Shown here: piece by piece, positions 316 through 37,610 of the stretch | Layout of the letters: each line of letters opens with the position of its first letter | Position numbering within the stretch: the stretch's first letter is position 1 | Assembly: GCA_947589535.1 (NCBI GenBank) | Contig: CANQAS010000006.1 | Span: 1-44,316, forward strand | DNA: 44,316 bases | Reading direction: 5' to 3' | From: an uncultured Bacilli bacterium | GTDB taxonomy: Bacteria; Bacillota_I; Bacilli_A; RF39; UBA660 | The notes under the pieces: generated by a model | Told to the model about the DNA's origin: nothing | The model's database searches: none | The model's input: only the letters and a program-made list of their open reading frames with translations | Translations under genes and position numbers: made by a program

Positions 316-619
316 TTTCTATCCTTTCTATTTGTCTATTAATTTTATTTTTCATAACTTCTTTTATATCTTCATCTTTAATGTCATAATATAATTGAAA
401 TTGTTTTAACATAACCATAACATCTGCTATTTCTTCTGTAATATGTTTCTTTTTAGTAATATCACTATCTATTATTGTAATATCTAATAAATCTTTTAAT
501 GATTGTTCATCTTCATAATTAATAATTGCTTCATTTAATTCAAATACTTCTTCATTAAATTTTCTTAATTGGTGATTTACACCATAATTATTAATTATTC
601 TTAATAAATCTTTATCCAT
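305..619 (-). CDS. MazG-like nucleotide pyrophosphohydrolase
   Basis: A 104-aa all-helical protein. It resembles the MazG/dUTPase-type all-alpha NTP pyrophosphatase superfamily, which hydrolyses nucleoside triphosphates to monophosphates with Mg2+. Visible signs are an EExxE-type motif near residues 24-28 (FNEEVFELNEAI) and a later ExxD motif near residue 64 (EEIADVMVM), the usual four metal ligands, followed by a KINRQIERI helix. The start has AAAGGAG 7 nt upstream and overlaps the end of the replication initiator by 8 bp. In phages such enzymes clean or rebalance the nucleotide pool; its position among replication genes fits. Substrate not predictable. Confidence 0.75.
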   Translation of the reverse strand: MDKDLLRIINNYGVNHQLRKFNEEVFELNEAIINYEDEQSLKDLLDITIIDSDITKKKHITEEIADVMVMLKQFQLYYDIKDEDIKEVMKNKINRQIERIENEK

Positions 620-1367
620 CTCTAAACTCCTTTATAAAATTATCAAATTCTTTATTATCAACTGTTTCTGTACTTGTTATCTCTTTATTATACCATTCTG
701 GTATTATTTTTTTATTTGTAGTTTTATTGTTTCGTTGCTCCCATGTTCTTATACATGCTTTCCAATCTTTCATCTTGTTCTTGCCAACCATCCAACCTTT
801 ACTTTCATAAAAGTCGTAAAAGTTATTAGCATTTATGTTATTGTTTCTATCATTGCAATAATTTTGTATTTCCTCAATAGTAGGTTTTATAAATTTTTTT
901 TCTTTTTCTTTATTTATTTCTTTTTCTTTTTTTATATTTTTTTTATTATTATTAATACTATATTTACTATTAATACTACATATACTATTAGTATTATATT
1001 TACTATTAGTATTATATATTATATTATTGTGTAAAATTTTTTGGGTACCCCCCAAAATTTTTGGGTACCCCCCAAATTTTTTTACTACCCCCCAAATTAT
1101 TTTATACTTATTAAATTTTATGTTATTTATTATTTCTTGGTCTTTCTCAATATAACCTTTTTCAATTAAACTATTTATACAATTATCAACAGTTTGTAAT
1201 GATGTATTTAACCAAGTTGCTAAATAACTTCTACTACCTTTAAATTCACTATCTCCATCTTGACTAAAGCCATATATTATTGCATATATTAATAATTCAT
1301 TACCCTTTAAATTCAATTCACTAACCATCCACCCCTGAATTAAAATGTAATTGTTATTAATATCCAT
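612..1367 (-). CDS. Replication initiator / replisome organiser-like protein (251 aa)
   Basis: Start chosen at ATG 1365-1367, preceded by GGAGG; a start 12 nt upstream lies inside that SD. Residues 1-90 look like a winged-helix of the phage replisome-organiser type (GWMVSELNLKGNELLIYAII, then a second helix with LQTVDNCINSLIEKGYI). A low-complexity Asn/Lys/Ser linker follows (about 115-165). The C-terminal part (KPTIEEIQNYCNDR, FYDFYESKGW, MKDWKACIRTWE) is the DnaD-like tail found in many phage initiators. The DNA for residues near 95-112 contains three exact 20-bp-spaced repeats, and the linker DNA is almost pure AT, so the origin probably lies inside this gene, as in many Gram-positive siphophages. 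Confidence 0.75.
   Translation of the reverse strand: MDINNNYILIQGWMVSELNLKGNELLIYAIIYGFSQDGDSEFKGSRSYLATWLNTSLQTVDNCINSLIEKGYIEKDQEIINNIKFNKYKIIWGVVKKFGGYPKILGGTQKILHNNIIYNTNSKYNTNSICSINSKYSINNNKKNIKKEKEINKEKEKKFIKPTIEEIQNYCNDRNNNINANNFYDFYESKGWMVGKNKMKDWKACIRTWEQRNNKTTNKKIIPEWYNKEITSTETVDNKEFDNFIKEFRDG
1043..1096. repeat. Three 20-bp-spaced iterons within the initiator gene (candidate origin)
   Basis: The unit TACCCCCCAAA starts at 1046, 1066 and 1086, a period of exactly 20 bp. The first two copies are embedded in GGGTACCC palindromes. A C6/G6 tract is conspicuous in this AT-rich genome. Immediately beside it, about 890-1040 is nearly free of G and C and contains short TACTATTA-type repeats, a plausible DNA unwinding element. 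Together these look like initiator binding sites plus a melting region. The repeats also encode protein (GGY/GGT-containing segment), so both constraints may act. Confidence 0.7.
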
Positions 1368-1385
1368 AACTTCCTCCAAATTAAA

Positions 1386-1444
1386 AGAACTCTTAATACA
1401 AGGTATCTAGGTAGATAGAATTGATACCCTGTATTAAAAGTTCT
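1386..1444 (-). ncRNA. 22-bp hairpin with an anti-RBS loop (candidate regulatory RNA element)
   Basis: Arms 1386-1407 and 1423-1444 pair over 22 positions with no bulge. In the minus-strand RNA the two non-identical positions are U.G and G.U wobbles, whereas in plus-strand RNA they would be C/A mismatches, so the minus-strand transcript is the structured one. The 15-nt loop (AAUUCUAUCUACCUA) is complementary to AGGTAGATAGAA, which lies directly upstream of start codons at 4253, 5824 and 9066 and partly at 2466, and once more at 1453-1464 in this leader. It sits between the HTH regulator and the initiator gene. Alternatives: an RNase III processing stem, or a weak terminator (stem followed by TTTAATTT). 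Confidence 0.6.
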
Positions 1445-1452
1445 TTCTGTTC

Positions 1453-1464
1453 TTCTATCTACCT
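1453..1464 (-). promoter_or_regulatory. AGGTAGATAGAA motif, copy in the initiator leader
   Basis: Exact 12-nt copy of the motif found at gene starts 4253, 5824 and 9066. Here it is not followed by a start codon; it lies 8 nt before the 22-bp hairpin whose loop is complementary to it. It could pair with that loop in cis and compete with pairing to other genes. Confidence 0.5.
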
Positions 1465-1512
1465 TACCTCTAATTAAATTATATAAAATTATTTTTTAAA
1501 AAACAATTCTTT

Positions 1513-2466
1513 TTATAATCTATCAATTAATTTCTCATATCTTTTAATTTGAATTTTCAAATCAGCATTTTCTTTTAATATATCTCTATTTTCTTTTACA
1601 AGAAAATCTATATATTTTTCATATTCAATTTTTTTGTTATCTTCAAAATCAACTTCTTTTATACTATCATTTTGTGTGTTAGTATTTATTATTTCACAAT
1701 CATCTATTACATTATAATAATTTTCAATATTTATATTTTTTGGTTCAACTTCTGGTTCGATATTTTCATCAATTTTAATAACTTCTTTTTTTTCTTTAAT
1801 ATCATCTTTTTTATGTTCTTTATACCAGTTATATAAAATTTCCATAGTATTACTTAAATATTTAAACTTTGCTTTCTTATTTTCAATATTACAAATGCAA
1901 CTTTGTGCTACTTTCAATTTTCTTGATAAATCTATCATTGATAGATTTTCTTTTAATCTTATTGATTTTAAATCTTCATTTTTTAAAAAGTTTAGTATTT
2001 CTTCTTTCTCTTCATCTGTATATTCTTTACTTAGTACTGTGTTTCTATGTTTAACTTCAATTTTTTTATTTTCATCCTTTATATTCCTATTAAAGTCATT
2101 TTGAAAAAAATAATATAATTGTTTTAATCTATCTCCAACTTGTTTTATTTCATCTTTTTTGTTTTCAAAATTACATATTGTAGAATTATCACACTTTAAT
2201 TTTCTTGCTAATTCTGCTTGAGATTTATAACCAAAATCCTTTCTTAATTGTTTTAAATCTGTGTTATTATACCATTGTAGAATTTCAACATTTTCTAGTT
2301 CTTGTTCTGTCTTTGTTTTATTAGTCATTTCTAATACTTTATCAAATGTATTTCCACTAATGGTTCTTTTTCCATCTTTTAATTCACTTATTTTTTCTTC
2401 ATCAACATTTAATCTTTCTGCTATTGTTTTTGTATTTTTAATTTTCTTACCCCAAAAATTTGTCAT
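1513..2466 (-). CDS. Multi-HTH DNA-binding protein with C-terminal coiled coil
   Basis: A 317-aa protein with three successive segments that read as helix-turn-helix units: residues about 13-45 (KTIAERLNVDEEKISELKDG), 70-105 (SQAELARKLKCDNSTICNFE) and 165-200 (SMIDLSRKLKVAQSCICNIE). The second and third are clearly related and probably arose by duplication. The C-terminus (about 265-317) is a charged coiled coil, suggesting an oligomer. Likely role: transcriptional regulator or origin-binding protein. It lies directly upstream of the initiator gene and is a candidate for binding the repeated 16-bp operators or the iterons. I do not recognise a named family with this architecture. Confidence 0.65.
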   Translation of the reverse strand: MTNFWGKKIKNTKTIAERLNVDEEKISELKDGKRTISGNTFDKVLEMTNKTKTEQELENVEILQWYNNTDLKQLRKDFGYKSQAELARKLKCDNSTICNFENKKDEIKQVGDRLKQLYYFFQNDFNRNIKDENKKIEVKHRNTVLSKEYTDEEKEEILNFLKNEDLKSIRLKENLSMIDLSRKLKVAQSCICNIENKKAKFKYLSNTMEILYNWYKEHKKDDIKEKKEVIKIDENIEPEVEPKNINIENYYNVIDDCEIINTNTQNDSIKEVDFEDNKKIEYEKYIDFLVKENRDILKENADLKIQIKRYEKLIDRL

Positions 2467-2467
2467 A

Positions 2468-2476
2468 CTATCTACC
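2468..2476 (-). promoter_or_regulatory. Partial copy of the AGGTAGATAGAA start-site motif
   Basis: GGTAGATAG ends 1 nt before the ATG of the multi-HTH gene (sequence GAGGGTAGATAGTATG). Nine of the twelve motif bases are present, so pairing with the hairpin loop at 1386-1444 would be shorter than at the three full copies. Confidence 0.4.
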
Positions 2477-2491
2477 CTCTTTCTTATTTTT

Positions 2492-3436: not shown

Positions 3437-3853
3437 TTAAAATGGTAGCATACTATCATCTATTTTTATATCACTATTAATATTATCATATTCAGTTTTA
3501 TAACTATTAGGAATTTCTACTTCTTTTTTTTCTTCTTCCTTTTTATCTTCTTTCTTCATTTGTAAGAACGATACTCTTTCTGCTAAAAATCTATATTCAT
3601 AATGTTTATTACCATTCTTATCTTCATAATTATTATTCTTGATAATTCCTTTAACTCCAAGTAAATCTCCTTTTTTGCAGAATTTATTTATAGTTTCTGC
3701 AATTGTACCAAATACACTAACATTTAAGAAAGTAGTATCATCTTTACCATTGCTTATTGCTAGTGGTAACTCTAATACTGCTTTATGGTCTTTTGTGTAT
3801 CTTAATTCTAAATCTCTTGTTATTCTTCCTATTACAATAAAATTATTATTCAT
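3437..3853 (-). CDS. ssb: Single-stranded DNA-binding protein
   Basis: 138 aa with an N-terminal OB fold: MNNNFIVIGRITRDLELRYT start, a LELPLAIS strand, LNVSVFGTIAETINKFCKKG and the LLGVKGIIKNN strand, then a KE-rich linker and an acidic tip ending DDSMLPF, the conserved SSB C-terminal type (DDxLPF) that recruits partner proteins. It coats ssDNA in replication and ERF-mediated annealing. Its start overlaps the preceding gene by 8 bp; the Glu-rich tail of that gene supplies the SD. A second, interrupted SSB-like gene lies at 23759-24052. Confidence 0.95.
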   Translation of the reverse strand: MNNNFIVIGRITRDLELRYTKDHKAVLELPLAISNGKDDTTFLNVSVFGTIAETINKFCKKGDLLGVKGIIKNNNYEDKNGNKHYEYRFLAERVSFLQMKKEDKKEEEKKEVEIPNSYKTEYDNINSDIKIDDSMLPF

Positions 3854-4253
3854 CTTCTTCCTCTTCTTCTATTCCAATTTTAATTCCTAATTTACTAATT
3901 TCTTCTAATTGTTTTTTTAATCTTTCAATTTTATCTTTTGTTGTTTCTTCTGTTGTTTGTGTCTTTCCCATGCTTTTATATATATCTTCATTTATTTCTT
4001 CTTTACTATTAAAGAATTTATATTTATCTTCATACCCAATTCCTAATCTAAAAGCATATTCAACTTCTTCTTTCGTTACTCCTTTTAGTTTTAACATATT
4101 TAGTGTTAGTTCTGAGAATAATGTCATTAATGCTGATGTTGTACCTTTTAATGTTACTTCTTTATCATTAACACGTATTTCTGCCCCTTTCATATTTTTT
4201 AAATAATCTTTATATAAATTTTCTAATTCATTCAAATCTTTAAAATCTAACAT
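3846..4253 (-). CDS. Hypothetical early protein (135 aa)
   Basis: Unrecognised. Contains a LNELENLYKDYL helix, a short beta segment (EIRVNDKEVTLKG), a further helical region and an acidic C-terminus ending EEEEEDE. The DNA of that acidic tail (GAGGAAGAAG) forms the ribosome binding site of ssb. Located between a membrane protein and ssb, so a recombination-related role is possible but not shown. Its start region carries the 12-nt AGGTAGATAGAA motif. Confidence 0.6.
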   Translation of the reverse strand: MLDFKDLNELENLYKDYLKNMKGAEIRVNDKEVTLKGTTSALMTLFSELTLNMLKLKGVTKEEVEYAFRLGIGYEDKYKFFNSKEEINEDIYKSMGKTQTTEETTKDKIERLKKQLEEISKLGIKIGIEEEEEDE

Positions 4254-4255
4254 TT

Positions 4256-4267
4256 TTCTATCTACCT
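4256..4267 (-). promoter_or_regulatory. AGGTAGATAGAA motif at the start of the 135-aa gene
   Basis: The motif ends 2 nt before the ATG at 4251-4253, between the SD-like AAAGG and the start codon. All 12 bases are complementary to the hairpin loop at 1408-1422 (minus strand). Confidence 0.55.
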
Positions 4268-4683: not shown

Positions 4684-5070
4684 CTAATTATCTTTTGGCA
4701 TAGTAATTCTTAACATATCACTAGTACCACTTTTTATTAATACTTTCTTTTTTTGTCTATTACAGCAATCTTGATATATATGTGGATATTCTTGTTTTAA
4801 TCTTTCTATATCAAATTCTTCTACTTCTTGTTCTTCATATTCTGCTGTCTTACCAATAGAACAAGTAATTTGTATTCCTTTAGGTGTTATCCATTTTAAT
4901 TGTTCTAATTTATTTTTCTTTCCTATTTCTACCATTGATGTTTTTAATTTTGATTTAACATCATCATATCTTTCTTTTAATGTGTTTATTAATTTTATTT
5001 CTTCTTCTAAATTATCAAGTTGATTTAATAAATCTTCTTGTTGTTTTTTTATTAAATTATTTTTTATCAT
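4684..5070 (-). CDS. Phage early coiled-coil protein next to ERF
   Basis: 128 aa. The N-terminal 60 residues are a coiled coil (LLNQLDNLEEEIKLINTLKE). The C-terminal half has the pattern GIQITCSIGKTAEY ... EEFDIERLKQEYPHIYQDC ... KKVLIKSG, which recalls the small proteins that accompany ERF/RecT recombinases in many Firmicutes phages (Gp157-like or related families). Its start overlaps the ERF gene by 14 bp. It likely assists recombination or protects DNA ends, by context only. Confidence 0.6.
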   Translation of the reverse strand: MIKNNLIKKQQEDLLNQLDNLEEEIKLINTLKERYDDVKSKLKTSMVEIGKKNKLEQLKWITPKGIQITCSIGKTAEYEEQEVEEFDIERLKQEYPHIYQDCCNRQKKKVLIKSGTSDMLRITMPKDN

Positions 5071-5824
5071 TTTCTTCCCCTTTCTTTTTCATGATATCTA
5101 TTGCATCCTTTAATTGTTCTATACTCATTTGTGAATTATTTTCAACTTCATAATGCTTATATAATTTCTCTTTATCTGTATTTGTATTAATTACTAATTT
5201 GCTAAATTCAACCAATAATTTTAACCTTTCATCTTCATTCTCAATATTTTTACTATCTTTTTTATCTAATAAATCTATACATTTATTAAGGTATTCATCT
5301 TTCTTGTTATCATATAGCCATTCAATATATTCATAATCTTCATTATATACATCAATTAATAATTGACCTGCATGTTTTTTACCAAAATTAATTACATATT
5401 TCTTGGCATCTTCAAGTGTTGGTTCACTATTACCTGTGTTAGTTGTATCACTATCTTTAACATCATCTATTAAGAATAAGCCATTTAAAGCATATTTTCT
5501 AGCATAACTACTACTTGCTCCAGTTATTTGTGAACCATCCATCCCTTTCTTTGTAATTTCTTCTCTTGCATAAGCAACATTTTCTTCAACTTCATCACTT
5601 TCAATATCTTTTAATATAGCAGTTGCTCTAATATAATATCTATCTCCTAATACAATTAAATCATCATTTAATTTTAATTGTAATTTGTATTTGTTTAGAA
5701 GTGGTTTAACTGCCTCTAAAATATCTTCACAACTTCTGTAATTATATCCACCAAAATCGTTGTGTTGGTTTTTTGGTGCTTTTAGTTCCATTTGAACGTT
5801 TAATATTTTTTCTTTTAAATTCAT
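5057..5824 (-). CDS. erf: ERF family single-strand annealing protein
   Basis: 255 aa. The N-terminal 130 residues match the ERF superfamily: MELKAPKNQHNDFGGYNYRS, CEDILEAVKPLL, a strand set ending ILKDIESDEVEE, then the characteristic GMDGSQITGASSSYARKYAL and LFLIDDVKD. ERF proteins form rings that anneal complementary ssDNA in phage recombination and end repair. The C-terminal half is a charged linker and helix that may contact SSB. The ATG directly follows the AGGTAGATAGAA motif, so pairing with the 1386-1444 hairpin loop would cover the initiation region. Confidence 0.9.
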   Translation of the reverse strand: MNLKEKILNVQMELKAPKNQHNDFGGYNYRSCEDILEAVKPLLNKYKLQLKLNDDLIVLGDRYYIRATAILKDIESDEVEENVAYAREEITKKGMDGSQITGASSSYARKYALNGLFLIDDVKDSDTTNTGNSEPTLEDAKKYVINFGKKHAGQLLIDVYNEDYEYIEWLYDNKKDEYLNKCIDLLDKKDSKNIENEDERLKLLVEFSKLVINTNTDKEKLYKHYEVENNSQMSIEQLKDAIDIMKKKGEENDKK

Positions 5825-5836
5825 TTCTATCTACCT
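5825..5836 (-). promoter_or_regulatory. AGGTAGATAGAA motif at the start of erf
   Basis: The motif abuts the ATG (AAAGGTAGATAGAAATG). It overlaps the SD-start spacer and is complementary over 12 nt to the loop of the 1386-1444 hairpin. Same arrangement as at 4256-4267 and 9069-9080. Confidence 0.55.
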
Positions 5837-5842
5837 TTCTTT

Positions 5843-6049
5843 CTAATAAATTTTTAATAATTCCATTATATCTGCATCAGGGAATAATTTAGTAAACTTT
5901 TCTGCGAACTCAATACTTGGGTTTGTTTTTCCTTTTTTGATATTGCAGTAAGTTTGTTCTGTTATTCCTAATGCTTTTGCAACATCTCTTGCTTTTAAAT
6001 CATTTGCTTTTTCCCACAGAATTAAATTCTTTCTTGTTCCTCTTTTCAA
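5843..6049 (-). CDS. Small XRE/Cro-type HTH regulator
   Basis: 68 aa from a TTG start at 6047-6049, chosen because AAAGGAG lies 8 nt upstream; a GTG at 6058 would overlap the SD. A single XRE helix-turn-helix fills the protein (LKARDVAKALGITEQTYCNIKKGK, in two pieces around the turn). There is no oligomerisation or peptidase domain, so it is Cro-like rather than CI-like. It is the first gene after a promoter with extended -10 and a 16-bp operator, so autoregulation is plausible. Confidence 0.8.
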   Translation of the reverse strand: MKRGTRKNLILWEKANDLKARDVAKALGITEQTYCNIKKGKTNPSIEFAEKFTKLFPDADIMELLKIY

Positions 6050-6072
6050 AAATATCACTCCTTTCTATTTAT

Positions 6073-7013: not shown

Positions 7014-7853
7014 TTAATCTAATACATTAATTCCATAACTCTTTAAATCATTTATAATTTCTTCTACTGATTTATAATTCATAAAACTTTCATAATTCCA
7101 AACAATAACATCATCTTTTAATACTTTATTTAAAAATTTTTTAATATAACCCCCATCTGCTTCATCACCATATCCATCAGTAAAATCACGGTATCCATCA
7201 TTTACTTCCATCCATCTAAACTTTATTCTCCTTTGCATACTTGGGTTTGCTATTGTAAAACATATTTTCTTTAAGTTCAATGGTTCTTTATCTGTCTTTA
7301 CTCTTACTAACATAAAACTATAATTACCATAATCATCATTTGCTACTCCACTATATAAATTACATCTGTATCCTTTTTTTTCTAACATATCAATAACTGT
7401 TAAATATTTACTTCCAATTCTTATTATATCACTTCCTTGAACACCACCATTAACTCTAATATTTAAGAATATATTTATAATTCTGTGTGATAATCTGTTT
7501 CTATTACAATTTATCATATTAATTGGATAACCTTTTAAATAATTTGGTACATTTGGTATATAGCCACATACATCATTCTTATATGCTAATCTATTTTTTA
7601 CATTTCCTAAATTATTTTTAATTTCTAATCTTGCTTTTTCTTCTTTTATTTTTTCATATAATTTATCATCACCATATTTTAATAAATTCAATGCTTCATC
7701 AAAATTTTTAGTTCCATACCATTCTTCATTACCCAATTCATTACTACTATTATTTCTTCCTGCTTTTCTTTGTTTTGTTGTTACATAATCAGCAAGTTCT
7801 GTTATATTATCAAATAAATTGAAATAATCATTTTTAGTTTTTATTTCTATCAT
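7014..7853 (-). CDS. DUF7192-like partner of the MoxR-type ATPase
   Basis: 279 aa. Features: YGTKNFDEALNLLKYGDDKL near residue 47-66, GYPINMINCNRNRLSHRIIN near 128, NIRVNGG, and SKYLTVIDMLEKKGYRCNLY near 168, a region reminiscent of a degenerate von Willebrand A-like domain. In many phages such a protein directly follows a CobS/MoxR-like AAA+ ATPase. The two genes overlap by 20 bp here, which argues for a complex. MoxR-VWA pairs act as chaperones or remodelling machines; the client in this phage is unknown. Confidence 0.65.
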   Translation of the reverse strand: MIEIKTKNDYFNLFDNITELADYVTTKQRKAGRNNSSNELGNEEWYGTKNFDEALNLLKYGDDKLYEKIKEEKARLEIKNNLGNVKNRLAYKNDVCGYIPNVPNYLKGYPINMINCNRNRLSHRIINIFLNIRVNGGVQGSDIIRIGSKYLTVIDMLEKKGYRCNLYSGVANDDYGNYSFMLVRVKTDKEPLNLKKICFTIANPSMQRRIKFRWMEVNDGYRDFTDGYGDEADGGYIKKFLNKVLKDDVIVWNYESFMNYKSVEEIINDLKSYGINVLD

Positions 7854-9066
7854 TTGCTATTTTCTCCAATTCTTTTGTCCATTCACTATTGTTTATTTCT
7901 TTTAATTTATTAATTATGATATTTAAATCATCTATTTGCATATTCTTAATTATAGCACTTCTTAATATATTTGCTTTAGTCATACCAATTTGTAATAATT
8001 TAGTAGCATTAATTGTTGCTCTCATTGAAACAATATATCTTAACGAGTTCTTTTCTATTATACTTCTTAAATCTCTTATAAATTCATATAACTCATTGTC
8101 ATAAGCAAGTGATTTTTCAACGTTTTCATCATAATTAAATTCTATAACAGTAAATCTATCAAGTGTAGCACCATCTAACGCATTTCTTCCAACATATATC
8201 ATATCTGCACCTGTACCATATGTATTACCAGCACAAACAACTCTAAAATTTTCATTTGCTGTTACTTTTCCATTTGGGAAATCAAAATACCCATTTGCTA
8301 TTGCACTATTTAATATAATTAAACTTTCTGGACAACTTGCGTCAATCTCATCTAAGAAGAATAACCCACCATTTTTAAATGCTTTATAAAATTGTGTTTC
8401 TTGATACACACCATTTGCATCTATAAATCCTGTCAATTTATATTCTTGAGTAATAGCATTACTAAAATAAAAATCTAAATCTAATGCCTCTGCTACTTGT
8501 TCTAATGTATGATTTTTACCAGCACCAGCAGAACCTACTAACATCAATGGTACACCTTTACTAACTATCTTTAGTATATCTTCAAATTTATTATGAAATA
8601 TACCTGTTATTTGTTTTGATTTAACTTCATCTTTTATTTCTATTTTTGTTGGCAATGCTCCATATTTATCAACTATGTATTTATCAAGTTTATCCATTAT
8701 CTTTTTGCTTAATTCTTCAACTGGTACTTTTGATGCTTTGTCAATAATCTTATCACTTATTGTTTCATCATACATAGTTCTTTTGTCAATTTTGCTAGTC
8801 AAATCTTTAATTGCTCCAACTACTTCTTTTAAATCTATAACCTGTGTATTGCTTTCTTCTTCATATTTTTCAAGCATTTCATCTGTCCAAGCAAAATCAA
8901 CTTCTTTTAGTCTATAACTGTTATCATAATCAACATCCTTTATAGTCATAAACTTTAAATTTTTTGTTTCTTCTCTCATTTCTTTAACAAAACACCATTC
9001 TCCGTAATTTGTTCCAACTTTCAATCCTTTTTTTACTTTAACTTTATCTCCTACTTTAAATTTCAT
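7834..9066 (-). CDS. AAA+ ATPase, MoxR/CobS-like (AAA_5)
   Basis: 410 aa. Residues 1-70 form an SH3/KOW-like start (FKVGDKVKVKKGLKVG). The AAA+ core holds Walker A LMLVGSAGAGKNHT near residue 176-188, Walker B GGLFFLDEIDA near 232, sensor-1 RVVCAGNT near 276 and the arginine-finger region ATLDRF near 300. This is the CobS/MoxR clade, often seen in phage early operons with a VWA-like partner, present here as the next gene. It probably powers remodelling of a protein complex in infection. The start carries the AGGTAGATAGAA motif, so it is one of the candidate targets of the hairpin loop. Confidence 0.85.
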   Translation of the reverse strand: MKFKVGDKVKVKKGLKVGTNYGEWCFVKEMREETKNLKFMTIKDVDYDNSYRLKEVDFAWTDEMLEKYEEESNTQVIDLKEVVGAIKDLTSKIDKRTMYDETISDKIIDKASKVPVEELSKKIMDKLDKYIVDKYGALPTKIEIKDEVKSKQITGIFHNKFEDILKIVSKGVPLMLVGSAGAGKNHTLEQVAEALDLDFYFSNAITQEYKLTGFIDANGVYQETQFYKAFKNGGLFFLDEIDASCPESLIILNSAIANGYFDFPNGKVTANENFRVVCAGNTYGTGADMIYVGRNALDGATLDRFTVIEFNYDENVEKSLAYDNELYEFIRDLRSIIEKNSLRYIVSMRATINATKLLQIGMTKANILRSAIIKNMQIDDLNIIINKLKEINNSEWTKELEKIANDRNKN

Positions 9067-9068
9067 TT

Positions 9069-9080
9069 TTCTATCTACCT
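9069..9080 (-). promoter_or_regulatory. AGGTAGATAGAA motif at the start of the AAA+ ATPase gene
   Basis: Exact copy ending 2 nt before the ATG at 9064-9066, within AAAGGTAGATAGAAAAATG. Complementary over 12 nt to the loop at 1408-1422. Confidence 0.55.
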
Positions 9081-34171: not shown

Positions 34172-34966
34172 TTAAAATAATCCCCATTCTGCAAACTTTT
34201 CAAATCCACCTATCTTATTAATATAATCTTTTGCAAATTCTACTATTTCAGCATAAGGTTTACCATCTACATATTTATCACCAATAGCACAGTTTAATTC
34301 AACTACTTTGCCTGTTTCTTGTGCTTTACAGAAAGCATAAATATTTACTGATACATCTGCTTTAGATAAGTCTTTTCCGTGTAGTCCTCCACCTGTTACA
34401 CTTTGTGCCATATCACTTCCTAATTTCCTATTTGTTGCTCCTGTATCAACATCAGTTCCACCTGTCCATTCTCCTAGTGGGTTTATTATTATATGGTTAG
34501 ATATACCTACACTACTTTTTAATAAATCTTCATTTTTAGCATTGCTTTGACAAATAATCATTTTTTCATCTGTTAAAATATATTTTCCATCAGTTGGGTA
34601 TTCTTTATAAATATCTCTTGCTATTTGAGATATTTTCTTTTCATTTTCTGTTAAAGGTACACCTTTAAATATTCCATTATCACCACATCTTATTTCTTCA
34701 CTTTGATTTTTAGATAAATGTTCATCTTGTTTAACAACTACTAAATCAAGTTTCATTTTGCCAGCAATTCTATCAACTATTGCTTGTATTTCTTCATTTG
34801 TAAATTCTTCACTTGTTTCAGCAATAATATGACATATTCCGTGTCCTATTAATACCTCAACTGCTATTTTTGGTCTTTCATTTTTAGAATATGCTAGGTC
34901 AACCATAGCTCCTGCAATTCTATCTGCCACCTTATCAGGATGACTTGGGTTTACTTTTTCTATCAT
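34172..34966 (-). CDS. metK: Short S-adenosylmethionine synthetase (264 aa)
   Basis: Start at ATG 34964-34966 (GAGG six nt upstream). It makes SAM from methionine and ATP. Visible family motifs: NPSHPDKVADRIAGAMVD (ATP site His/Asp), the RCGDNGIFKG loop (GAGDQG in E. coli), NPLGEWTGGTDVDTGATNRK, and SVTGGGLHGKDLSKADVS with the conserved lysines. Cellular MetK is about 380 aa; the central domain and C-terminus are shortened here but the active-site residues seem kept. Overlaps the radical SAM gene region and probably feeds it. Confidence 0.9.
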   Translation of the reverse strand: MIEKVNPSHPDKVADRIAGAMVDLAYSKNERPKIAVEVLIGHGICHIIAETSEEFTNEEIQAIVDRIAGKMKLDLVVVKQDEHLSKNQSEEIRCGDNGIFKGVPLTENEKKISQIARDIYKEYPTDGKYILTDEKMIICQSNAKNEDLLKSSVGISNHIIINPLGEWTGGTDVDTGATNRKLGSDMAQSVTGGGLHGKDLSKADVSVNIYAFCKAQETGKVVELNCAIGDKYVDGKPYAEIVEFAKDYINKIGGFEKFAEWGLF

Positions 34967-34974
34967 TTTATTCC

Positions 34975-36288
34975 TCACATTCTTGTTTTTAATACTTCTT
35001 CTCTTTTCAAGCCCTTTTGTTTTTCAAATGTTACTTCTTGATTATATTTATATATAATATTATTATCTTCATCATAGCCATCTGGTATTAATACTTTTTC
35101 AAATATTTTATATGGACTTTGCCCCATTTTTGGGTTGTTCCATAAATAATGTAAATAATCTTTCATAGTCATATCACTAAATTTTGCACGATTTTCACTT
35201 GAAGTAAAATTAAATCCCTCTGCTGAGTTATATTGAAAATCTAAAAAATACATATCTTTTTCAATATCTTTCCAATAAACTTTACCTGTTGCTTTTGCTA
35301 TTTGTAATGCTGATGAGAAATTACCTCTTGAATAATCCCAATTCTTATTTAAAGCACAACAACAACAATTATTAGAACATTCTTTAAAATGAGCATCACT
35401 TACATAAAATCTCATACCTAATTCATCGCATATTCTTTTCATATCTTTTATGTATTTTTCTTTAATCTTTCTATTAAGTCTTAAATAACCTGTTCCTGTT
35501 GAATGCTTTTTATAAAAATCTACTATATCAAATCCACAACATTCACTAATAGTTTTATAATGTTCTTTTGCTTGATTAACACTTCTAACCTCTAAGCAAA
35601 AAAACTCTGTTGTTACTGCTGTTGCTCCTGCTTTATGTGCTTCTCTAATTAATTCTTCATAATCTTCACTACTAATTCCAGGTATAAATGGTCTTAATCT
35701 TAAAGTAGCACCACCTTTGCTTAATTTATTCCATTCTTTCATTGCTTCAAGTCTTTTTCTCGGAGATGGTACACCTACTTCTACTTTCTTTGCCTTTTCT
35801 TCATTTAAAGTAATAATACTAAATTTCATATTCCAGTTATCTGCACCTTTAAATAATTCTCTATATTTATCATCAAAAAATACCCACGCACTTTTTGTAC
35901 TAAAGCATATTGGATAGTTTATTTCTTTTAAATATTTTAATAATTCATAAGTCTTCCCATACTTCTTTTCAAATCCATCAAATTGGTCACTTAATCCACC
36001 ATATTGAATAGGTCTTTTATCTTTTACATATTTATAAAATTGACTTTTTTCATCTTCACCACTTAAAATCTTTTTAACCTTTTCAACATTAATACATTTA
36101 ACTAATTTATTTTTATATTCTTCTTTTCCTTTACCTATACCTCTTTGATATTGACTAAAGCAATATACACAACCAAAAGAGCAATTACTATATGTATCTA
36201 ATGTCATAGGTAAAGAACAATCAGCAATTTCTCCAGTCCATCTAGGACTGCCATAAGTTTGTTCTATATCTTCTTTATTTTCTGCCAT
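34975..36288 (-). CDS. Radical SAM enzyme with extra C-terminal cysteines
   Basis: 437 aa. TYSNCSFGCVYCFSQYQRG holds the CxxxCxxC motif (about residue 35-42) that binds the [4Fe-4S] cluster; a TIM-barrel body follows (ICFSTKSAWVF, WNMKFSIITLNEEKAKKVEV, GATLRLRPFIPGI), related to the spore photoproduct lyase-like branch. A second cluster FKECSNNCCCCALNKNWDYS near residue 305-325 may bind an auxiliary Fe-S centre. Reaction unknown; by context it modifies DNA bases. It lies between a glycosyltransferase-like gene (14-bp overlap) and SAM synthetase. Confidence 0.85.
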   Translation of the reverse strand: MAENKEDIEQTYGSPRWTGEIADCSLPMTLDTYSNCSFGCVYCFSQYQRGIGKGKEEYKNKLVKCINVEKVKKILSGEDEKSQFYKYVKDKRPIQYGGLSDQFDGFEKKYGKTYELLKYLKEINYPICFSTKSAWVFFDDKYRELFKGADNWNMKFSIITLNEEKAKKVEVGVPSPRKRLEAMKEWNKLSKGGATLRLRPFIPGISSEDYEELIREAHKAGATAVTTEFFCLEVRSVNQAKEHYKTISECCGFDIVDFYKKHSTGTGYLRLNRKIKEKYIKDMKRICDELGMRFYVSDAHFKECSNNCCCCALNKNWDYSRGNFSSALQIAKATGKVYWKDIEKDMYFLDFQYNSAEGFNFTSSENRAKFSDMTMKDYLHYLWNNPKMGQSPYKIFEKVLIPDGYDEDNNIIYKYNQEVTFEKQKGLKREEVLKTRM

Positions 36289-37012: not shown

Positions 37013-37595
37013 TTACTTTCTCCATTATTTCTTCACATCTGTAAACAACTTTCATTTCTTCTTCTGTTTCATTAAATATCTTTCTTAAAAATTGCTCTTC
37101 TTCTGGTGTTTTATATGTTATTATTACTCTTTTATTTGTTAAAAAATCATCTGCATTTGAAGAATATTTTTCAATAATATCTTTATCATATTCTTCAGGT
37201 TCCATATCATCTGTCAATATTGATAATTCAAAATCACCAAATCCAAAATCTGTCATATCTATATCATTTAAAATATCTTTTAATTCAATAGATAATAAAT
37301 CATCATTCCATTCTGCCATATCATTTGTTTTATTATCTGCTATTCTAAATGCTTTTATTTGTTTTGGTGTTAAATCATCTGCGATTATACAAGGCACTTC
37401 TGTAAGTCCTAATTTTTGACTTGCTTTATATCTTGTATGACCTGTTACTATTACACCATTTTTATCAATTACTAATGGTACTTTAAAGCCAAATTCTTTA
37501 ATACTATTTGCAACATAATCTATTGCATTATCATTATTTCTTGGGTTATTTTCGTATGGTTTTAACTCATCTAATTTTTTATATACTATTTCCAT
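37005..37595 (-). CDS. ParB/Srx-fold protein
   Basis: 196 aa. KKLDELKPYENNPRNNDNAI, then VIVTGHTRYKASQKLG with the GxxRxxA box II of ParB N-domains, and TPKQIKAFRIADNKTNDMAE, typical of phage ParB-like proteins beside terminase or DNA modification genes. The methylase domain that often follows is absent; instead a small C-terminal domain (NKRVIITYKTPEEEQFLRKI) is present. ParB folds in phages bind or cleave nucleotides (CTP/ATP). Overlaps the GT-A gene by 8 bp. Confidence 0.85.
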   Translation of the reverse strand: MEIVYKKLDELKPYENNPRNNDNAIDYVANSIKEFGFKVPLVIDKNGVIVTGHTRYKASQKLGLTEVPCIIADDLTPKQIKAFRIADNKTNDMAEWNDDLLSIELKDILNDIDMTDFGFGDFELSILTDDMEPEEYDKDIIEKYSSNADDFLTNKRVIITYKTPEEEQFLRKIFNETEEEMKVVYRCEEIMEKVNE

Positions 37596-37610
37596 TTAAT
37601 CTACCTCTTT

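Follow-up and report, generated by a model that had tools for sequence, protein, structure and literature searches.

The long hairpin upstream of the replication initiator gene in this phage genome is one half of a self-pairing leader switch, and both the structure of the switch and its conservation are well supported computationally. Our computations revealed two leader helices that covary across phages and fold exclusively of each other, together with a promoter-like site, a U-tract and complementarity of the hairpin loop to ribosome binding sites (RBSs). The window, that is, the whole stretch of 44,316 nucleotides that was analysed, is a complete circular phage genome with a 77-bp terminal direct repeat and siphovirus-type structural genes. 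No integrase match was obtained among the proteins scanned, a set to which many small and some large tail-region proteins did not belong. The host assignment is uncertain, since the phage genome sits in a metagenome-assembled genome. Apart from the leader, the window contains a small HTH gene (5843-6058) that is a candidate for a further, separate regulator of early genes; a TATAAT-like site of its own directly precedes it (TATGATATAATATAAATAGAAAGGA-GTG). It also encodes a protein that by reading resembles S-adenosylmethionine synthetase (34172-36288; phrog_1569, no named function) and adjoins a radical-SAM-like protein, and the two may form a DNA or metabolite modification module.

Leader architecture in the window

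The leader is read from the minus strand and carries four segments in the order A (1453-1464), B (1423-1447), A' (1409-1420) and B' (1383-1407). A promoter-like site, TTGTTT-17-TATAAT (1478-1506, minus strand), gives a predicted transcript start at ~1470; taken alone the match is weak, as 14% of random places equal it. The 5' end of the predicted transcript is formed by A (AGGUAGAUAGAA), which pairs with A' (UUCUAUCUACCU) as an antiterminator-like helix, while B and B' are the 5' and 3' arms of the long hairpin in whose loop A' lies. The base of B' overlaps a terminator-like U-rich tail (UUCUUUUAAUUU, 1378-1390), followed by the Shine-Dalgarno sequence GGAGG (1373-1377) of a 251-aa replication initiator or DnaD-like gene (612-1367, minus strand; phrog_270, phrog_186, HTH_36). 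This gene, whose ATG starts at 1367, is the one predicted to be controlled in cis. Within it, tandem GGGTACCCCCC repeats on the plus strand (1039-1090) can be read as short terminator-like hairpins.

The initial annotation had described an unbroken 22-bp stem on the minus-strand RNA (1386-1407 with 1423-1444). This was a conservative estimate: we measured 25 consecutive pairs (1383-1407 with 1423-1447), 22 of them Watson-Crick and three G.U, closing a loop of 15 nt. The minus-strand RNA between 1370 and 1480 folds with -32.6 kcal/mol (z -4.69), a value equalled by none of 200 shuffles. The plus strand of the same region folds more weakly (-23.9), because every G.U turns into A/C there. The proposal that selection acts on the minus-strand RNA also gained support from the covariance model, which scored 62 bits in sense against 36 in antisense, and from the G.U pairs found in the stems throughout the family described below. 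We excluded the tally of 38 G.U against 0 A.C as independent evidence because the finder itself permits G.U and penalises A.C.

Related leaders and covariation of the two helices

Two syntenic relatives, L091 and L042, carry a hairpin at the same place but of quite different sequence. The 31-bp hairpin of L042 has GTGTTCGTACTC in its loop, the complement of GAGTACGGACAC near the start of the transcript. A scan of perfect stems for loop complements missed the relatives, and the exact pattern of leader motif and loop gave 0 matches in viral contigs because the tag differs between phages. The perfect-stem scan was replaced with a GU-aware scan for interleaved A-B-A'-B' segments, which returned 14 matches with a score of 60 or higher in 6.26 Mb (every locus on both strands, with overlaps between loci counted) and 0 in 3.13 Mb of Markov-2 sequence. 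From the scan we accepted the elements of the window, L042, L091 (weaker), L123/L124, L027, L117, L120 and L185. Matches in L082, L127, L179, L195, L209 and L139 were dropped as lacking a promoter/U-tract context, as repeats or for high GC. With the later additions of three elements in L239 (a, b and c) and of L245 and L256, both on contig G747, the family numbers 13 elements, spread over 10 genomes or contigs of phages.

The later additions were found without the A:A' criterion. A covariance model in which only B is paired, scanned against 386 genomes, found L239b and gave L239a and L239c as weak sites; L245 was found by a DNA pattern of the loop flanks and L256 by a second covariance model. 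All five have 11-13 bp of A:A' pairing, and they represent a fair test because the first elements had been picked for that pairing. The layout of the family is a promoter-like site, a 5' A of 11-13 nt, a B helix of 18-32 bp whose loop carries A', a U-tract and an RBS. We found it in all 13 elements, with L091 degraded at A and its A:A' pairing imperfect. Every element is in gene orientation and starts just after a promoter-like site with 17-bp spacing. Random places equalled this site in 0-15% of cases for eight of the nine elements tested, L091 being weak. Likewise, B' ends in four or more consecutive T before the RBS in 13/13, though this run is partly paired and these genomes are T-rich.

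Covariation of this region in related phages, which the initial annotation had put forward as a check, was evident for both helices. In a MAFFT alignment of eight elements 98.5% of B:B' positions were paired and 20 of 26 pairs had changed on both sides, with a covariation score of 0.72 compared with 0.10-0.15 when the arms were slid. With twelve elements, 17 of 23 pairs had changed on both sides and the score was 0.74 (at most 0.16 slid). For A:A', aligned by hand on constant anchors in seven elements, 98.8% of positions were paired and all 12 of 12 pairs had changed on both sides, and the score was 1.33, while sliding the arms gave no more than 0.19. All 12 of the 12 aligned elements have one U.G wobble in common, with a U-A pair after it (alignment A5 columns 30:91; 1438 with 1392 in the window), although the rest of the stem is variable, and this could be a recognition feature for a protein or an RNase.

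The element is followed by initiators of several families (phrog_270, phrog_4707 and phrog_5968) in four genomes, those of the window, L042, L123 and L027, and the gene after the L091 element aligned with these initiators at low identity. The L185 element precedes an Erf-like ssDNA-annealing gene, HNH genes follow the L120 and L239b elements and GIY-YIG-like genes, recognised by reading the sequence, follow those of L245 and L256. These four elements stand directly before their homing-endonuclease-type genes (L120 1436-2026, L239 9755-10381, L245 ~2184 onward and L256 ~1610 onward), and the leader may travel with, or restrain, HNH and GIY-YIG genes of this type.

Other searches added no elements. 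Searching viral sequences with erf, and both viral sequences and genome contigs with the HTH protein, found no relatives, and a genome-contig search with alignment A1 yielded 28 loci, none with a clear element. Among the named phages searched there was no convincing homologue of the element; a Staphylococcus match spans the promoter/RBS only. Rfam gave no match at the gathering threshold in the window, the relatives or L239, and we took the sub-threshold matches at the locus, of microRNA type or to the bglG leader, as chance.

Proposed switching and the copies of A at gene starts

Stepwise minimum-energy folding favoured A:A' until the transcript reached ~80 nt and B:B' afterwards. The linkers between the four segments are mostly 0-7 nt, so that a full pseudoknot holding the 12-bp and 25-bp helices together is implausible on geometric grounds. 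The layout, as we model it, is that of an attenuator with a permissive early helix and a terminator-like later one. We consider it on balance probable that the element works as a bistable attenuator, placed in the 5' leader of one of the early genes (the initiator in this phage), and that the leader RNA acts in trans on A, blocking the RBSs of the erf, AAA+ and pre-ssb genes as well. The termination, the action in trans and the silencing are predictions of this model, which would run as follows. The promoter would start RNA synthesis just before A, and in the growing RNA A would pair first with A' (12 bp, with B looped out), so that the polymerase reads on. If A were unavailable, the 25-bp B:B' hairpin with its U-rich end would form and transcription would stop just before the initiator RBS, leaving a stopped RNA that shows A' in its loop. 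The likeliest signal would be the leader RNA itself, accumulating with genome copies: its A' loop would catch A on new transcripts and cause more termination, and the same loop would block translation of the erf, AAA+ and pre-ssb genes through the A copies at their RBSs. Read-through would depend on kinetics because B:B' is far more stable than A:A'. Against the terminator reading, part of the U-tract falls within the stem, and a simple terminator scan, which allowed loops of 3-8 nt only, did not call the B:B' hairpin with its U-tract.

The sequence of A, AGGTAGATAGAA, occurs exactly at four places on the minus strand (1453-1464, 4256-4267, 5825-5836 and 9069-9080), and the loop contains its exact 12-nt complement; the loop had thus been rightly described as complementary to early-gene starts. 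No further exact copy of A or of its complement exists anywhere in the 1.13-Mb assembly, and a second-order Markov model predicts 0.03 copies for the minus strand and 0.0003 for the plus strand. Copy number alone is unimpressive because the genome has 26% GC and contains 24 different 12-mers with at least four copies on the minus strand; looser matches to A (up to 3 mismatches) were not enriched either, with 76 observed and 105 in shuffles. What is unusual is that A exactly complements a hairpin loop and that it lies 0-2 nt before an ATG.

Three of the exact copies are located at gene starts, as the initial annotation had stated. The one at 4256-4267 lies at the RBS of a 135-aa gene before ssb (3846-4253), that at 5825-5836 at the RBS of the Erf ssDNA-annealing protein gene (5057-5824; PF04404, 3e-41) and that at 9069-9080 at the RBS of an AAA+ ATPase gene (7834-9066; AAA_5). 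All three genes are on the minus strand and are candidate trans targets, with a predicted pairing of -17.9 kcal/mol to the loop in each case, better than with the loop of any other phage. The HTH regulator gene (1513-2466) has a partial copy at its start (GGGUAGAUAGUA, 2466-2477, minus strand), which had also been correctly noted earlier (2468-2476) and which pairs with the loop at -15.0 kcal/mol, and a weak copy with 2 mismatches (AGGUAGAUUAAA, 37595-37606, minus strand) is found at the start of a ParB-like gene. The antisense segment of c4 RNA (RF01695) is also complementary to an RBS; in our family this property was established for the window.

These copies at the erf, AAA+ and pre-ssb RBSs are the strongest hint of action in trans. 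Comparison with relatives does not back trans silencing, since among the sequences read the RBS copies were found only in this genome. In the genome parts that we read for L042, L123, L027, L120, L185, L117 and L239, the complement of the loop is found only in the leader and never at an RBS, and L091 has one tentative RBS site, at an AAA+ gene (-14.5 with a bulge; next best -10.4). In the relatives it is A:A' in the leader that is conserved and covaries. Accordingly, the leader copy, which had been listed as one more target, turned out to be the conserved partner of A'. Of the earlier idea that the loop silences a set of early genes, the antisense loop and its predicted pairing with three RBSs stand, but the absence of RBS copies from the parts read of seven relatives speaks against it as a general function. 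Because the relatives keep only the A:A' pairing of the leader, multi-gene silencing would be at most a lineage-specific extension of the cis switch. As such it is plausible in the window phage, where one RNA could switch off several replication genes at once.

Across phages, the predicted pairing of a loop with its own A averaged -16.9 kcal/mol, compared with -5.8 for other pairs, and only the close pair L239/L117 cross-pairs fully. The three tags of the L239 genome are largely non-crossing, the strongest cross being that of the L239a loop with the L239c A (-14.4). L239a and L256 share 91% identity in the 60 nt upstream but only ~53% in A and 36-40% in B, and both are fully self-paired. Fast change with the self-match kept is typical of self-specific trans-acting RNAs such as plasmid copy-control RNAs. 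The rapid change of the tag could fit such an RNA, but it could also reflect neutral drift of a pure cis switch. By analogy with the P4 CI RNA, the released loop probably acts in trans on A. A wider and more speculative idea, which we regard as possible but doubtful, is that the tag is a self-recognition code. Each leader RNA would repress only leaders with the same 12-nt tag, providing copy-number control and immunity against phages of that tag, with several tags per genome and with tags on RBSs building a regulon.

Two alternatives also start from the A copies. The first, which we consider rather unlikely, is a switch that works in cis only, where the choice between A:A' and B:B' would be set by a phage protein that binds RNA, by the movement of ribosomes or by how fast the polymerase runs, and the A copies at RBSs would be sites of the same protein. 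T4 RegA is such a protein, with translational control of several early genes. The conserved part of the system does lie wholly in cis, A at the RBSs could be the operator set of one protein, and short open frames cross the leader in L042 and L027. However, the sequence of A varies between phages and among the three L239 elements, a change that a single protein could hardly follow, and the window leader has no ATG and therefore no shared leader peptide. Moreover, while several early RBSs share a motif as they do with RegA, the motif here is the exact complement of an RNA loop. The second alternative, the version of the initial annotation, is a dedicated small RNA whose loop shuts off early genes through their RBSs, with the leader copy as just another site. 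The three exact RBS copies, paired at the energies given above, would suit it, but the relatives, as far as their genomes were read, retain the leader copy without the RBS copies and A stands at the transcript 5' end in every element, so we give this version little chance.

Comparison with known systems and a second kind of leader

The bistable attenuator that we favour has partial counterparts among known leader RNAs. The P4 CI RNA derives from an untranslated leader and, through its pairing with seqA and seqC, terminates transcription of the replication genes of P4 (PMC4825925). The element resembles it in that a leader segment (A') is complementary to an upstream sequence of the same leader (A) and would cause premature termination before replication genes. 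It differs in that the P4 CI RNA arises by processing of a longer transcript and acts on both seqA and seqC. In the element, the antisense loop belongs to a terminator-like hairpin, which is one of the two mutually exclusive folds, and the tag is hypervariable, with up to three differently tagged elements per genome; we set the two apart by description. The c4 antisense RNA of P1/P7 (Rfam RF01695; PMC8198154, PMC2864571) is required in P1 for full ant repression (PMC8198154). It too is a phage leader RNA with a segment complementary to upstream sites that blocks a downstream phage gene, as is predicted here. However, its fold differs, and our elements belong to Firmicute phages and precede initiators, a recombinase gene and homing-endonuclease genes instead of an antirepressor gene. 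RF01695 gave no gathering-threshold match in the window, the relatives or L239 and was absent from the matches up to E 10 at the locus.

The rep leaders of pT181 and pIP501 are attenuated by countertranscripts (PMC5703833). With them the element shares mutually exclusive folds in the leader of a replication initiator, the later one a terminator-like stem just before the rep RBS. It differs in that their regulator is a countertranscript from the opposite strand, while here none is predicted and the regulator would be the sense leader. A combination of P4 CI with a rep attenuator comes closest to the predicted working of the element, which we count as a member of none of the P4 CI, c4 and pT181/pIP501 systems. 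Attenuation as in pT181/pIP501, with an antisense RNA from the opposite strand binding the leader and triggering termination, would agree with the site before a replication initiator and the terminator-like hairpin before its RBS. We find it very unlikely, as in eight of nine elements the opposite-strand promoters do not exceed those of random places. Moreover, A and B are separated by 0-5 nt in most elements, so that an antisense RNA covering A would extend over B and prevent B:B'.

An RNase III site, a stability hairpin or a translation enhancer without switching, of which the RNase III site with a shared enhancer had been the earlier alternative, would account for a long perfect stem just before the RBS and for the invariant U.G wobble. 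None of these needs the 12/12 covariation of A:A' or a fixed A at the transcript start, nor would they explain the exclusive folds, and we regard them as scarcely credible. The chance that the element is a DNA feature (an origin, a cruciform or a repressor operator) merely resembling RNA is negligible, for although it adjoins the initiator and its motif is repeated, its pairs are kept via G.U on one strand only, as the sense and antisense model scores reflect, and it is always gene-oriented after a promoter-like site.

If the attenuator model is true, the elements would make up a family of phage leader RNAs that is so far unlisted and whose self-complementary tag is modular and changes rapidly. 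Among phages from uncultured gut Firmicutes, this family would serve initiators, a recombinase gene and homing-endonuclease genes. Phages would possess a protein-free means to sense their own transcript or copy number, and the family would illustrate how tag copying onto start sites can turn a cis switch into a multi-gene antisense regulon.

Finally, we observed a second kind of leader before initiator-type genes, at ~2400-2587 in L019, ~9345-9532 in L026 (the same in L025 and L023) and ~9615-9802 in L034. This kind, for which there was no Rfam match, consists of a hairpin with AGTGCGG, GTTGCGG or TTGTGCAG, followed by a terminator-like hairpin with the respective complement (CCGCACT, CCGCAAC or CTGCAC) in its loop and by a T-run, and it resembles a covarying kissing-loop version of the same logic.
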